This document shows, one piece after another, positions 20,687-26,764 of a DNA stretch of 37,667 nt. Under the pieces are notes generated by a model. The model worked only from the letters and a program-made list of their open reading frames with translations. It searched no databases and was not told where the DNA came from. Within the stretch, counting starts at the first letter, position 1. Each line of letters opens with the position of its first letter. The position numbers were made by a program, and so were the translations under genes. Source of the stretch: Cyanobacteria bacterium FACHB-DQ100 (GTDB taxonomy: Bacteria; Cyanobacteriota; Cyanobacteriia; Leptolyngbyales; Leptolyngbyaceae); assembly GCA_014695195.1 (NCBI GenBank), contig JACJNW010000020.1, forward strand, positions 1-37,667. Reading direction: 5' to 3'.

Positions 20687-20899
20687 TTACATGCTTAAGG
20701 GCTGCTTCTGAACGTGAGAATAGCCCAATATTTTGCTATCTATCGTCACCAATGGGCAACTAGTCAATCGTGCTGTTGCTACGATAATTTGGTCGGCTGG
20801 ATCTCGATGAAAATCACCAGGAAGCTGAGTAGATTCTACGCAAATTCGGGGGGTTAGCTCCAAAAGACGCATCCCAGGATAGGCTAACGCTTGATGGCG
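20687..20899 (-). pseudogene. VapC-type PIN-domain toxin, C-terminal fragment
   Basis: The frame reads ALAYPGMRLLELTPRICVES, then TQLPGDFHRDPADQIIVATA and RLTSCPLVTIDSKILGY. This is the C-terminal half of a cyanobacterial VapC, with the catalytic DPAD...VTIDSKI acidic residues. The N-terminal half with the first catalytic Asp is missing: the frame ends at TAA just upstream of 20899, next to an IS1-type fragment. No VapB antitoxin is adjacent. An ATG at 20872 could give a 61-residue peptide, which should be inactive. Confidence 0.78.
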
Positions 20900-20931: not shown

Positions 20932-21063
20932 ATGATGGACTGTCCCGACTGCCACTCAACTCATATTCGCAAGAACGGCAAGCGCAGAGGCAAGCAGAAT
21001 CACATCTGCGTGGAGTGTAAACGCCAATTTCTAGATCGCTATGATCCGTCTGATTGTCTCTGA
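20932..21063 (+). pseudogene. IS1-family InsA-like N-terminal zinc ribbon, fragment
   Basis: Forty-three codons read MMDCPDCHSTHIRKNGKRRG, then KQNHICVECKRQFLDRYDP. This is the CxxC...CxxC ribbon that opens IS1-type transposases. After YDP the expected helix-turn-helix does not follow; the sequence passes into an unrelated large gene. A ribosome site (GAGGTGA) lies upstream. Its left edge abuts the truncated vapC and its right edge the truncated giant gene, so the insertion or a later deletion cut both. Confidence 0.75.
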
Positions 21064-21898
21064 TGGCATGAGTTCTACCGTGATCAACTCCGTCACAGCA
21101 GGTCGCAAGGCACGAATTTTAGTGATTGATGACGAAGCGCGATTGGCTTCGCCAAGCCCCGAAGGATCGCATGGTAGCGAGGTCTTGCACGATCGCAATA
21201 ATCGCGCAATTCCCCCTGAAGAACTGAACCAGCTTTACGACAAGATGGGCGACGGAACGATGCTGGTTGCCACACCTGTCATGAAGCGCCTGCTAACCAT
21301 AACAGAGGTCGAGCAAGTGATCGTCAAAGTTTTAGAAAAAGCTGGCATCGAGGCAGATGTTTCTGAACTCATCGATATCTATCAGCGAGAAGGCACCTTC
21401 AAAACAGCACCCATCCCATCCGAGGCTGCTGAAGCGCTCGATAAACGCCTTAACTATCTGGCTCGCACAACCGTGACTCAGTTCCGCGCTGCCACTCCAG
21501 ACCTTCCTGGCATGGTAAAGGGAACACTGGCAACGAGCCGATGGTGTGAGCGATTAGGAGTAGACGCGATCATCTCCAAAAACGACATCAAAGGGGATGA
21601 TGGTATTCTCTCTAAGCCGGGGATCAAAGAAGTTGAGGAATTCTGGATTAATCGTAAATCGGATGGGAAGTACGGTGAGCAGGTGGTCGGTCCACAAGTC
21701 AAAGGCTGCATTCCTGACGCAACGCTGACCGAATTTAATCCGCGTATGTTGGCGCAAGCCGAGGCACTGGCAGCGGTTGCAGTTGACCCACGACGATTAG
21801 GGCAATACTACCTGGATCAAAAGGACAAACAGCGAGAAGTTCTGGCAACTGACGATAGCGAAGTAGACGAGCAATCTGATGGCTCTATGAGGTCTTGA
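21041..21898 (+). pseudogene. Giant polymerase-like gene, 5' part (N-truncated, ends at a frameshift)
   Basis: The first few codons come from the IS1 fragment; own sequence starts near 21049 (LIVSDGMSSTVINSVTAGRK). Features seen are ARILVIDDEA, a palindrome-encoded RLASPSPEGSH insert, IPPEELNQLYDKMGDGTMLV, KGTLATSRWCERLG and VVGPQVKGCIP. I recognise no family in this part alone. The TGA at 21896 is a frame error: the sequence continues coherently in another frame from 21895 (LKSDQFGQLDQFSKINYELD). The true start is lost, so an ATG at 21041 is unlikely to be a native start. Confidence 0.55.
21139..21170. repeat. Short dispersed palindromic repeat inside coding sequence
   Basis: GCGATTGGCTTCGCCAAG and the following CCCCGAAGGATCGC form a small hairpin (TTGGC-TTC-GCCAA) bounded by HIP1-like GCGAT/ATCGC ends. 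It resembles short repeats dispersed in cyanobacterial genomes. Here it encodes an out-of-place RLASPSPEGSH stretch in the giant gene. Confidence 0.5.
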
Positions 21899-22317
21899 AG
21901 TCTGATCAGTTCGGGCAACTAGATCAATTTAGCAAGATTAACTATGAACTGGATCGCTACCTGCGCGGTGAACGAGTCGATCTAGCTGTAGGTGGCATCT
22001 ACGTTCCCTCCGCAATAGCACAGCACCACGCCCAGATGATGCCTTAGGAGGTTTGTAATAGAGACTTGCCACATGGCGCGATCGTGGCGTATTACCGCTT
22101 TCCCTTCCCCAGCGTGGGAGCCGCCGCGATCGCAGTTAACAACACCAAAGTCCTAGCGCAAGCAGATCCAGAAGCATTTCGGAAAGAGGGGGTTGCCTAT
22201 CTGAATCCGTGGACGGCAAAGCACGTTGCAATCACTGATTTTGACAAAGATGCCAATGGCTATTTTGTTGGCTATCTCCCTACGGTTGAGGATGTGCCCA
22301 ATCAGATTCGAGCGTAG
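21895..22317 (+). pseudogene. Giant polymerase-like gene, middle part with DFDKD loop and two in-frame TAGs
   Basis: This part is continuous in one frame with the 975-codon part downstream, interrupted by TAG at 22045-22047 and 22315-22317. Between the stops it reads GAIVAYYRFPFPSVG, then about 30 residues, then EGVAYLNPWTAKHV and AITDFDKDANGYFVGYLP. The order R-x-P ... LN ... DFDxD ... P is that of the second double-psi beta barrel of RNA polymerases (NRAP ... NADFDGD in beta prime), where the three Asp bind the catalytic magnesium. All three Asp are kept (22237-22251); Lys replaces the usual Gly. This is my pattern match, not a search result. TAGGAGG at 22045 could be a ribosome site for TTG 22066, which would make the parts separate chains. 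Confidence 0.5.
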
Positions 22318-25245
22318 TTGGCATCGACCGTCGATCAATCACCTGCCGAGCAGTACGAAGCCGGACGATCGCTGTTCGGGCAATTAATCGCCCAGATGCA
22401 AACTGAGCCAGAGCACGCTCTAATTCGTCCTGGTGATTTTCCAGTTGCCGTTGCTGAAATCATCGATCGTAATGCCCCAGACCGAAAACCGCCAGAAATC
22501 GTGAAGCAGAAGAAAGTCAAACACGCCTGGGAGCAGGCACACGAATCCCTGTCTGAAGCAATCTGGAGAGCCTGGGAAATTACCGCGAATAATCCCACGG
22601 GCAAAGTGGCGAATGTCGGTATGATTCTTCAGTCTCTCGCGTTAGAGACCCAGTACATTGCTGCTGAGCAGAAAGAGCCATTGCTAGTCCAGATTTCAAC
22701 CCATTACAAGAAACTGCTGAATTCTGATACCGTTATTCCTGACGACACAGCCCTTCTCTCAAATGGCTTCCCTGCTTACGGTTTTAGAAATCGGATGGAC
22801 GCGATCGCGCAAGCTGCTGAGCAATTATCGACAATGCTGGATGTCGAGCAGCGGCAGCAGTTCGTCGAAGCCCAACTCAACAATGTTTATCAGCTTTTAA
22901 CAGATGTCGTTGACGGTCCCAACGCGGTTAACCTGCAAACGGCAGTTGATACTGCTAAAAGTTCAAAGGGCATTGATAAATCGATTCAAGCGTTTGCCAA
23001 AGCTCTCGCCCACAGACTCCATGAACTTCGTCAGCATCAGAAGGACCCAACGATTTACACGAATGGGAAGCTGATGCCGACTAATACTCAGGAACCGATC
23101 GGGTGGGGCGTGGAAGCGATGAACCGTCTCTACGAAGCAACTCAATTGGCGGAGTATTCGAACGAAGCATACCGGGATCTTTTTCCTAAGGATTTCACGC
23201 CGGAACAGGAAGAAAAAGCCCTTATGCTCGTGGAAGCCTACAACAATTTGGTGAAGCAAACGATCGAAACCAAAGAACGACTGCGCGAGAATCGTCCAGA
23301 AGACCAGCAACCCACGCTTATCTTGACCTCGCCTAAAACAGGCAAACATCTAACGCTCCAGCGACTTTGTGATGTCAACCCGGACGACTCACCGATTTGG
23401 GAAGCAAATAGTGAAACCAATTGGCAGACCTTCATTCAGGCAAATCCTAGAGTCACAAAGAGCAATCCAGAGCAATTTCTCGTTCAGCGGGTTCTCCGTG
23501 CTGAAGATGGAACAGAAACGCGAATTCCTCTGGGTTTTGTTGCGCCGGAGTCAGCGATCACACATAACCTGGAAGAGCGCTTTGGGCAGCATTCGCGAAT
23601 TCCGCTTGCTAATCCATCGGTTCAGTTTCGTCCATCTCTGGTGCTGCAAAGTGATGCCAAAGAACAGTTAGCTAGAGCAGCTCAATATCTTCAAGATGCC
23701 GTCGCAACTATCCCAACCGAAGAACGCATGGCCTACGCTTCGGCAATGTGGCGACAGAGTTCGGGGATGGGCGTTGTCCTCAAGGCATTTACGCGAGAGA
23801 TCTGCCAGCGGCTGCAAGCCGTTCCCGAAATTACCCTGACAGGTATTCAGCGAGAAACGAACGAAGTAGGTCGAATTCCAGATGGGGAATATACGGTCCG
23901 ATTCAGCCAGTACGCCTATCAAACCAAGGGTGGCGAAACTCGGACGACGCAATCTGTTGCGATCGTTGAAGCCGACGGAACAGAGAAACAGTTTGGCGCA
24001 ATTGATCCCCGATCAATGCGACTGCCCGTTGGCACGACCGTTATAGCCCAAATTACGACTCCTCTAGCAGACAAAGTGACAGCAAAAACTCCAGTGGGAG
24101 AGATCAGCATTAAGAAGATTCTGGAGCATGACTTGCGCGATCACGCTTGGCAGCCCGATTCGGCAATGCTTTATATCGGGTATCAAGACCAGATCGCGAT
24201 CGCGCAGGTGGAAATAGATGGCACTCGCAAAACATTAGGTATTCTCGATTCGACCTCCGAGCGGAAATTGAAGAGTTCTAAATTGCTACAAGTAGGAAGT
24301 TTCCAAGGAACTCAGGCAGTTCTCAATCAGGAAGCTGGCAACGTGGCTCAAGTGCAAGTCATGAGTTTGATCGCACAACCTCTTGCTAAATCCGTCCAAC
24401 GAGCAATGCAGGAGCGATCTAGCGAGGTGGCAACAGAACTGGCTACCTCTTCAGCCGTCAAAATCACGGGCAAACCAGTGCAGATGACGTATCCGCTGAT
24501 GATGTACGGCGAGGTAAATCCACTTCCAGTCGGTAACTGTTTGGAGGCAATGCGCGGCTACGGGCGCTGCCACACTACACGCACCTTTGAACCCTACAAA
24601 GCCTATGCTTTCAAAGAAGGCGATGTTGCGATCGCCTATGCGGGAGAACGAAAAGTTACCTTCCGAGTCGGCGAACAATATCGCATTACTCCTGCAATGG
24701 TTGCTGACTCAGCCTACCAACAGCAGTGGGCAGACATGGAAAAACATAGCGCAAAGGCATTGCCTCAGCTTTTCCTGAATAAGCAGGAAGTTTGGGGATT
24801 AAAGATGGAGCCGTTGGGCGACTATGTAGATGGGCGGATTAAGCCATTTCCGCCTACTCAACCGATTCAGGTACAGCCTCTTCAACCTGCACCGCCATCA
24901 GCAGTGGTAGCACCAGAGCAGAGTTACTCACCTTCTAGACAGGAGTTGCTCGATTGGTACACTGCTGTCAAAGCGAAAGGAGACATTTCTCGATTAGAGG
25001 GGATCAAGGCAATCGGAAACCGCTTGAGGCAGGTGTTTAACCAAGAGCAAGGTAATTCTGAAGCCATAGCAGCGCCGCCGCCAGACTATCGGAACTCAGA
25101 GGTTACGATCAGCCTGAATGAGCGAAAAATGATGCGTCGCGATATTACTAATTTTCAGACCGCCATTAGTGCTTTGCACAACTCCGCAGGAACCATGCAG
25201 CTTCAATCTGCTGAAAAAACGCAACCAATTCAAGTCGAACGCTAA
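22318..25245 (+). CDS. Giant polymerase-like gene, 3' part: 975-codon open frame
   Basis: The frame opens at a TTG directly after TAG 22315-22317, with no ribosome site, and belongs with the preceding frame. About residues 85-120 (NNPTGKVANVGMILQSLALE, then TQYIAAEQKEP) recall the G-x-(I/V)-(A/S)-N helix that follows the DxDGD loop in QDE-1/YonO-like polymerases. A long helical region follows, then a beta-rich part (about 500-620, IPDGEYTVRFSQYAYQ), and a block at about 727-846 (GRCHTTRTFEPYKAYAFKEG, MEPLGDYVDGRIKPFPP) that I recall only as a conserved region of unknown function in large cyanobacterial proteins. A Pro/Gln linker leads to a final helical segment. The lack of stops over 2.9 kb argues for recent decay or for retained use of this part. 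Confidence 0.55.
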   Translation: MASTVDQSPAEQYEAGRSLFGQLIAQMQTEPEHALIRPGDFPVAVAEIIDRNAPDRKPPEIVKQKKVKHAWEQAHESLSEAIWRAWEITANNPTGKVANVGMILQSLALETQYIAAEQKEPLLVQISTHYKKLLNSDTVIPDDTALLSNGFPAYGFRNRMDAIAQAAEQLSTMLDVEQRQQFVEAQLNNVYQLLTDVVDGPNAVNLQTAVDTAKSSKGIDKSIQAFAKALAHRLHELRQHQKDPTIYTNGKLMPTNTQEPIGWGVEAMNRLYEATQLAEYSNEAYRDLFPKDFTPEQEEKALMLVEAYNNLVKQTIETKERLRENRPEDQQPTLILTSPKTGKHLTLQRLCDVNPDDSPIWEANSETNWQTFIQANPRVTKSNPEQFLVQRVLRAEDGTETRIPLGFVAPESAITHNLEERFGQHSRIPLANPSVQFRPSLVLQSDAKEQLARAAQYLQDAVATIPTEERMAYASAMWRQSSGMGVVLKAFTREICQRLQAVPEITLTGIQRETNEVGRIPDGEYTVRFSQYAYQTKGGETRTTQSVAIVEADGTEKQFGAIDPRSMRLPVGTTVIAQITTPLADKVTAKTPVGEISIKKILEHDLRDHAWQPDSAMLYIGYQDQIAIAQVEIDGTRKTLGILDSTSERKLKSSKLLQVGSFQGTQAVLNQEAGNVAQVQVMSLIAQPLAKSVQRAMQERSSEVATELATSSAVKITGKPVQMTYPLMMYGEVNPLPVGNCLEAMRGYGRCHTTRTFEPYKAYAFKEGDVAIAYAGERKVTFRVGEQYRITPAMVADSAYQQQWADMEKHSAKALPQLFLNKQEVWGLKMEPLGDYVDGRIKPFPPTQPIQVQPLQPAPPSAVVAPEQSYSPSRQELLDWYTAVKAKGDISRLEGIKAIGNRLRQVFNQEQGNSEAIAAPPPDYRNSEVTISLNERKMMRRDITNFQTAISALHNSAGTMQLQSAEKTQPIQVER

Positions 25246-25764
25246 CGCTCAATTTCCCGGCTGTTATTCTGCTGACTTCGGGATTGGTTCTGCTGTCGCT
25301 CAAAGCTGCGATCAACCTAGCGGGTCATTTGCCTCGAAAGTAGCCATTACTAAAACGTCGAGTACTGGCATCAAACAAGTATTTGGCGCTTTTAGAAATG
25401 GCGATGTTCATGCCAAATAATCCACTAGCTCTCGAATCCTTACAGTGGACATATCCGCATCAATTTCGTGAATCGCACATTGTCGATCACAAGTCGCTTG
25501 ATTTGCTACTCCAGTGAAGTTAGCGCAAGGCGCAGGGCAAGGAAATTGCTCCAAATGACGAATTAAACTTAGAGATTTTGGTTTCCCATAACTTGTCTTG
25601 TGTTCATTCGACAAACCGCTAGAAGTGCTCCAGAACATTTGTTACAGAGCCCTTTAGAGGTTATATTTTGAGAATCACAAACGACCGGATACTGTTGGCG
25701 AACTCAGATTGGGATCACAATCAGGTTTCTGCCAAAGCTGCAAATCGAGAGACGCGATTTTTTG
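25246..25764. other. 519-bp stretch without a recognisable gene
   Basis: Neither strand shows a family I know. A minus-strand frame at 25408-25638 ends STVRIRELVDYLA, which looks protein-like but is short and lacks a convincing start. The DNA lies between the giant gene and the IS6 element and may be decayed sequence. Confidence 0.4.
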
Positions 25765-25861
25765 GGTTGTGTCGCAAAAATGGTAGGGTAGGGAGGCTCA
25801 ATTTTCGGTTCTGTCGCAAAGCTTTTAAAGCGACATACGAACTGGTTTCGTTCGTATTGTT

Positions 25862-26572
25862 TTAAGCAATCACTCCGAAGAGTTCATTGATGAATCTTGC
25901 TTGAGATACACTATCCCCTTGACTGATTCCCTTCACTTGTCCTTTACGAAGCATTGCCATTGCCTCTATCCCGCGCAACGTTCTCTTGGCTGTGTTGAAG
26001 ATTGAAATCCCATCGGCGGTCTGACAATGCGCTTCACGTTGCGATGGTCTTGCTCAATCATGTTGTTCAAGTACTTGCTCTGTCGTAATTCGGTCTCGGC
26101 TCTCAATGTTTTGTCCTGCTTCAACTCATCCATTGCCACGGGATAGGCATCATTCTTATCGACGGTAATCACTCGGGGCGTTTGAGTGTGTTTCGCTCCC
26201 AACACTTTACGGAAAAAGCGTGCCGCCGCTTTTCCGTCTCGCTTCGCACTCAGCACAAAATCCAGGGTGTTGCCTGCCGAATCTACCGCTCGGTACAGGT
26301 ACTTCCATTCTCCCCGGATTTGGATATAGGTCTCGTCGACTCTCCACGAATCACTCGTGGGACTTAAGAACCGTCTAATGCGTTTGTCTATTTCTGGGGC
26401 AAACTTCAAAACGAGCGCGATTAATGGTCGAATGATCCACGGCGATTCCCCGCTCCGCCATCATTTCCTCCAAATCTCGGTAGCTCAAGGAATAACGACA
26501 ATATCAGCGCACATTTAGCAAGATGATTTCAGGCAGAAAGTGATGCCATTTGAACAGCGTGTCAGTCCTCAT
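25862..26572 (-). pseudogene. IS6-family transposase with one nonsense codon and two frameshifts
   Basis: From the ATG at 26572: TDTLFKWHHFLPEIILLNVR, TGA (26504-26506, where Trp is expected), YCRYSLSYRDLEEMMAERGI, VDHSTINR. There is then a frame change near 26420; the long frame KFAPEIDKRI, SWRVDETYIQIRGEWKYLYR, ITVDKNDAYPVAM and LNNMIEQDHRNVKR; and another frame change near 25996 into FNTAKRTLRGIEAMAMLRKG, ending FINELFGVIA. All DDE residues are present (VDET, VDKN, IEQDH), so decay is by three small lesions rather than truncation. Confidence 0.88.
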
Positions 26573-26596
26573 TGAGAGCAAGACTAGAGAAAATTG

Positions 26597-26764
26597 GGCG
26601 TTGCTGAATGATGGCATGAATTCCGGGTTTGCCCTCATCCCCAACCCTTCTCCCCAGGGAGAAGGGAGCTAGAAATACTCTTGTTCCCTCTCCCCAGGGA
26701 GAGGGTTAGGGTGAGGGCAGCAACCCATTTAAACGAAGAAAACATACCGCTATTCAGCAACGCC
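26597..26764. mobile_element. 168-bp miniature element with GGCGTTGCTGAAT termini and 8-bp target duplication
   Basis: The terminal repeats GGCGTTGCTGAAT (26597-26609) and ATTCAGCAACGCC (26752-26764) are perfect. The target duplication GAAAATTG is seen at 26589-26596 and 26765-26772. The core is a CCCTCATCCCCAACCCTTCT...AGAGGGTTAGGGTGAGGG hairpin of a type widely dispersed in cyanobacteria. It inserted into the end of the IS6 element. It shares only its termini and hairpin architecture with the element at 18899-19033. Confidence 0.82.

Follow-up and report, generated by a model that had tools for sequence, protein, structure and literature searches.

In the beta-prime subunit of cellular RNA polymerases, an R-x-P motif is followed by the loop D-F-D-G-D. 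Single-chain two-barrel polymerases carried by phages and plasmids are already in print in passages of three papers (PMC5467207, PMC7598289, PMC10770324): YonO of the Bacillus phage SPbeta is described as a single-chain DNA-dependent RNA polymerase that transcribes SPbeta genes (PMC5467207), gp66 of phage phi14:2 is classed with QDE-1 and plasmid enzymes (PMC10770324), and homologues of RNA polymerase are described from Firmicutes and Cyanobacteria, in elements that are likely to be mobile (PMC7598289), with mobile-element relatives of YonO also mentioned in a passage of PMC7824862. For QDE-1, a passage of PMC1750930 lists Q736, K743 and K767 in the first barrel and D1007, D1009 and D1011 in the second. 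The locus considered here lies in a window of 37,667 bases, the whole of contig 20 in the 5.5 Mb, 44-contig draft genome of Cyanobacteria bacterium FACHB-DQ100. Positions 21048-25421 on its plus strand are the decayed remnant of a gene for a large single-protein RNA polymerase, and probably that of a chromosomal-type copy of a single-chain two-barrel polymerase gene of the YonO/QDE-1 group, from a family that is common on cyanobacterial plasmids. The original prediction, made from the letters of the window, had proposed such a polymerase with Lys in its catalytic loop and knew of no description of one; this holds for the Lys variant, on which no report was found in the open literature searched (several key papers on the family lie outside that set), but not for the wider kind, which the passages of the three papers named above already cover.

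Intact homologues occur in Cyanobacteria bacterium FACHB-63 (L012, 1,520 residues) and in a metagenome-assembled genome of Phormidium tanganyikae FI6-MK23 (L013, 1,515 residues). By blastn the relic is 93% identical over 4,379 columns to the L012 gene (6730-11104 of that locus) and 84% identical to L013, and its similarity to L012 starts at about codon 122, leaving some 121 first codons absent, and runs beyond the relic's own stop as far as 25421. The gene did not originally begin at the ATG of 21041: the DNA similarity to L012 opens at 21048, well inside the intact reading frame. Instead of the single reading path of about 1,400 codons that had been read here, there are three open reading frames, all on the plus strand. 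Piece 1 (21041-21898, frame 2), also recognised by profile matches, holds the first-barrel region with both of its Lys residues; alignment to L012 places a lost base, and with it the change of frame, at 21879-21880; frame 1 is then interrupted by an in-frame stop at 22045-22047; piece 2 (22066-22317, frame 1) holds the second barrel and ends in another stop at 22315-22317; and piece 3 (22318-25245, frame 1, 975 codons) covers the post-barrel helices, the middle region and the C-terminal domain. The last 975 residues, those of piece 3, are 92% identical to L012 and 88% identical to L013. Over piece 3 the ratio of non-synonymous to synonymous substitution rates (dN/dS) is 0.203 between window and L012 and 0.109 between window and L013, as against 0.088 for the intact pair, which is what recent decay would predict, and genome searches found no second copy elsewhere in FACHB-DQ100. 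The suggestion of an inactivated relative is thus apt for the truncated, frame-shifted and twice-stopped copy in the window; inactivation is not evident for the two intact homologues with DFDKD, on which purifying selection acts.

The residues of both barrels can still be followed through the relic, located by alignment and motif scan. TQFRAAT (21476-21496) carries the conserved Gln of the first barrel, comparable to Q736 of QDE-1, VKGTL (21515-21529) the first catalytic-type Lys, and IKGDD (21587-21601) a second Lys 24 residues further on, the distance that separates K743 from K767. In the second barrel, YYRFPFPS (22090-22113) contains the R-x-P motif (22096-22104, RFP in the relic and RSP in the intact homologues), and LNPWTAKHV (22201-22227) precedes the metal-binding triad DFDKD (22237-22251), with Lys replacing Gly; NPTGKVANVGM (22591-22623) provides the G-x-x-x-N helix motif and AVDTAKSS (22942-22965) the D-x-x-K motif. 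Each string quoted in the original prediction (YYRFPFPS, LNPWTAKHV, DFDKD, GKVANVGM) was located in the window. Three alignments bear on conservation, namely a ten-row family alignment (A2), one of 12 distant members (A4) and a five-row alignment of YonO (A5). The Gln and both Lys columns are invariant in A2 and A4 alike. A2 shows no variation either in the K-G-T of the first Lys, in R-x-P, in D-x-D-x-D or in a Gly, and next to none in N and in A-V-D-x-x-K; A4 is constant at the Pro, the triad with its Gly, a later Gly and D-x-x-K, but varies at the Arg of R-x-P and at the Asn that follows this later Gly. The spacing of the two Lys residues is 24 in L012 and 23 to 43 among other members. In a motif scan of the fetched loci, D-x-D-x-D is present in 54 of 54 rows because the scan itself demanded it; the Arg of R-x-P is missing in three of these (L058, L059, L061) and R-x-P is kept in the window, L012 and L013. 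Both sets of barrel motifs lie within one open frame in L012 and likewise in L013, the first barrel being N-terminal. Intact frames in other cyanobacteria repeat these motifs in unchanged order, which is more than chance would give. Alignments made with MAFFT on various cuts and mixtures of fragments mostly misplaced the triad owing to long insertions.

Homology to the YonO/QDE-1 group, as the original prediction had proposed, is supported by sequence profiles; intact relatives look akin to a phage polymerase and to eukaryotic gene-silencing enzymes. In comparisons of profile hidden Markov models with hhalign, A2 and A4 match with probability 100 (E 2.6e-81), A4 matches A5 with probability 93.9 (E 1.5e-7, score 71.6) and A2 matches A5 with probability 23 (E 8.9e-4, score 40.4). 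Against the reversed A5 the values were E 0.71 for A2 and 0.32 for A4, against the best of 20 column-shuffled versions 0.21 and 0.37, and the top score among all these controls was 21.5. The Pfam family RdRP (PF05183) matches three of ten distant members, one above the cut-off (1.2e-5) and two below it (7.3e-5 and 1.6e-4), and PHROG 4291, 'RNA-dependent RNA polymerase', also matches three of the ten (best 1.5e-8). The top matches of the A4 profile in the PDB are two Arabidopsis RDR2 sequences, aligned over R/K-x-P to D-x-D-G-D. None of 14 different family proteins, intact or nearly so, matched Pfam Rpb1, and PF00623 picks out the rpo gene of the cell itself at another place in the genome (C28).

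Compared with the described systems, the family shares with YonO the order Lys, Lys, R-x-P, D-x-D-x-D, G-x-x-x-N and D-x-x-K, as set out by A5, whereas YonO has 839 residues rather than about 1,520, is phage-borne rather than plasmid-borne, reads DNDGD in the loop and is the only one of the two with demonstrated activity. With QDE-1 it has in common the first-barrel Gln, two Lys residues 24 apart, the Asp triad of the second barrel and, through its distant members, PF05183; size and outer domains differ, and PF05183 does not reach the window's own subfamily. The cellular enzyme has R-x-P and D-F-D-G-D in the same order in its beta-prime subunit, but consists of two large subunits instead of one chain, and the Rpb1 family of beta-prime found no match here. 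The gp66 protein of the crAss-like phage phi14:2 resembles the Lys-bearing genes, by motif rather than by profile comparison, in being a single chain with a residue other than Gly inside the triad (DFDID), but is a virion protein of 2,180 residues and has Ile, not Lys. The mobile-element homologues of PMC7598289 are very likely of the same general kind, borne on plasmids or other mobile elements, and the relevant passages of that paper mention neither a protein from a cyanobacterial plasmid nor a loop Lys.

The family is associated with plasmids, which bears out the proposal that the gene is carried by mobile elements. With tblastn, piece 3 matched 62 plasmid records and a shorter member, P0006, matched 80, two sets that may overlap, and MOB-suite classed 26 of the 62 and 32 of the 80 as conjugative. 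Among the matches listed (20 of the 62 and 40 of the 80), all names are cyanobacterial and the annotation is mostly 'hypothetical protein', with two cases of 'ribonuclease H'. Counting FACHB-DQ100 itself, matches were found in 8 of 42 genomes of the order, and the A2 profile matched 37 of 386 genomes sampled across the phylum. The neighbourhoods of eight plasmid regions have no constant partner gene; the order MobF, ParM, polymerase recurs in two Nostoc plasmids. A plasmid of Pseudanabaena ABRG53a bears two members in the same direction, of 1,629 and 788 residues and a few genes apart (L031, 1251-6137 and 7858-10221), and on a plasmid of Phormidium yuhuli the gene matched by P0006 (L083, 1033-4236) is followed after 36 bases by an HU-family gene, with VapE and integrase genes nearby. 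As to viruses, scans of a viral contig collection confirmed no relatives and tblastn in phages gave no match for piece 3 or for L059; PHROG 34895, for which no function is given, matches ten of ten distant members, so phage relatives exist somewhere. Residues 1168-1258 of the Leptolyngbya boryana member P0005 match phrog_2072 and, at 48 bits against a cut-off of 45, NCBIfam NF049995 (A1S_2505 family phage protein), matches that mark them as an accessory domain common to phages. A defence system was considered and set aside, since PADLOC matches were weak and scattered over three of seven proteins (Csx19 at E 0.021, Cas4 at 0.0023, Cas7 at 0.00041) and were taken as chance.

What sets the window and its closest relatives apart is the Lys in the catalytic loop, found at the Gly position in the window, L012 and L013. 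The 54 triad rows comprise 36 DFDGD, 9 DYDGD, 3 DTDGD, 2 DKDGD and 4 DFDKD, the last four being two organisms each fetched twice, with duplicates among the other rows as well. DFDKD is thus kept in both intact close homologues and DxDGD stands in the rest, so the check named with the original prediction, conservation of DFDKD in intact homologues, comes out in its favour as far as the Asp triad goes. In a tree of 36 rows, with the relic excluded and duplicates removed, the pair of DFDKD genes groups together with support 100/97, nested in a DFDGD group, with L005, which has DFDGDR, as sister; the tree program flags long branches around this clade. The residue after the triad is Ala in the DFDKD genes, and in the other five members of this seven-row group it is Arg in four and Thr in one. 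By this tree, the Lys form is a derived clade of single origin. Between L012 and L013, a Nei-Gojobori script of our own gave dN 0.060, dS 0.779 and dN/dS 0.078 overall, and in residues 400-540 around the loop, the slowest-changing part of the two proteins, dN/dS is 0.014, with 6 non-synonymous against 63 synonymous changes and a dS of 1.34 that is near saturation. The pair also shows a fall of dS from about 0.8 to 0.2-0.3 toward the 3' end (residues 1260-1520), perhaps a trace of recombination. Because two intact genes are under purifying selection, the DFDKD form is probably a working variant, in use rather than dead. The DFDID of phi14:2 gp66, which is active, and the DFDYD of a YonO-like protein of phage BUCT082 have Ile and Tyr at the same site, so the superfamily does not strictly require the loop Gly.

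In intact members, the two Lys residues and the Gln would come from the N-terminal barrel, whereas the second would contribute the strand with R-x-P and the Asp triad predicted to hold the catalytic magnesium, with the G-x-x-x-N and D-x-x-K helices presumably lining the cleft. The intact enzyme probably synthesises RNA on a template for its own plasmid, the simplest role, by analogy with YonO and its phage genes, being the transcription of plasmid genes. In the small clade made up of FACHB-63, Phormidium tanganyikae FI6-MK23 and the relic, the loop Gly gave way to Lys and the adjoining Arg, usual in the sisters, to Ala. As Lys stands between the second and third metal-binding Asp, a positive charge would have been moved into the metal site, and it is tentatively proposed that this plasmid-type clade rebuilt its catalytic loop (DFDGDR in most sisters, DFDKDA here) and kept a functional enzyme whose use of metal, fidelity or choice of template has changed.

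Several results weigh against assigning the window's gene to this group of polymerases. Compared with Pfam, NCBIfam and PHROGs at E values as high as 10, the four large proteins of its own subfamily that were tested match no family of RNA-dependent RNA polymerases or RNA polymerases, the A2 profile found no polymerase in the PDB, and the RDR2 matches of A4 (E 0.12 and 0.13) are not significant alone, so that the link of this subfamily to polymerases runs via the distant members. AlphaFold models of a Nostoc member (945 residues, 10 alignment rows) and of the second-barrel piece of L012 (136 residues, 9 alignment rows) came out without confidence, at a mean predicted local distance difference test score of 35.5 and 34.0, respectively, so that no barrel was seen and the proposed fold derives from sequence alone; moreover, we know of no enzymatic activity for any family member. 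These weak direct matches and models would suit a plasmid protein of some other kind in which the motifs had come together by chance, an explanation that is nevertheless very improbable given the ordered conservation in the distant members and profile scores far above those of the reversed and shuffled controls. It is just as hard to believe that the breaks are assembly errors in a gene that is really intact: the assembly is a draft in 44 contigs and the remainder of the gene is mostly open, yet four separate defects would have to be explained away (the absent 5' end, one lost base and two stops), and the dN/dS of window and L012 over piece 3 is about 0.20 where the intact pair has 0.09.

If the gene is accepted as the relic of a two-barrel polymerase, the function of its intact relatives can still be read in other ways. 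That the DFDKD clade is two-barrel by descent and has lost catalysis, being kept for another job such as nucleic-acid binding or plasmid regulation, is rather unlikely in our estimate. Gly is found in 50 of 54 scan rows and in every one of the 12 in A4, so that its replacement by Lys might impair catalysis, a Lys next to the metal could stand in for the ion, and selection shows use rather than catalysis; on the other hand, neither intact gene has lost any of the three Asp, either Lys, R-x-P or a later motif, change is slowest around the loop, and the Ile and Tyr of the two phage proteins occupy the same site. A role in priming or in processing RNA-DNA hybrids during plasmid replication, in place of gene transcription, is a reasonable alternative in view of an RNase H fusion in one plasmid member, and is likewise held to be improbable. 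The member concerned, of 2,448 residues on plasmid Cy782203 of Gloeothece verrucosa PCC 7822 (L064, 7995-15341), ends in an RNase H domain (Pfam 2e-29), RNase H also appears in the annotation of a second species' match, and SSB genes are present in the L012 locus and near the Gloeothece gene. None of five other long members, which lack any Pfam domain, has this fusion, however, and the neighbouring genes vary between the plasmids examined.

Around the catalytic core, the relic keeps a C-terminal accessory domain (24457-24852, plus strand) that is common to Nostoc and Pseudanabaena homologues, as seen in alignment A1 and in short stand-alone matches; it is also matched alone in a 104-residue open frame of a genome of the same family (L009). 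A short fragment at 20687-20872, immediately before the truncated end, resembles a PIN domain but scores below the Pfam cut-off. Downstream of the gene, the relic of an IS6/IS240-type transposase occupies 25764-26602 (Pfam DDE_Tnp_IS240, 1.7e-40), strand unassigned, with an open reading frame at 25966-26409 on the minus strand, and its DNA resembles, in two pieces of opposite direction, the sequence upstream of the polymerase gene in L012.

All RNA polymerases of cells, like those of RNA silencing, are two-barrel enzymes, and this large, mostly unannotated branch on cyanobacterial plasmids offers new material on the kinship of the single-chain and silencing enzymes. The Lys clade is a natural test of the need for the loop Gly in the metal site and, should the tentative proposal of a rebuilt loop prove true, would give the first example, among two-barrel polymerases, of a basic residue within the triad.

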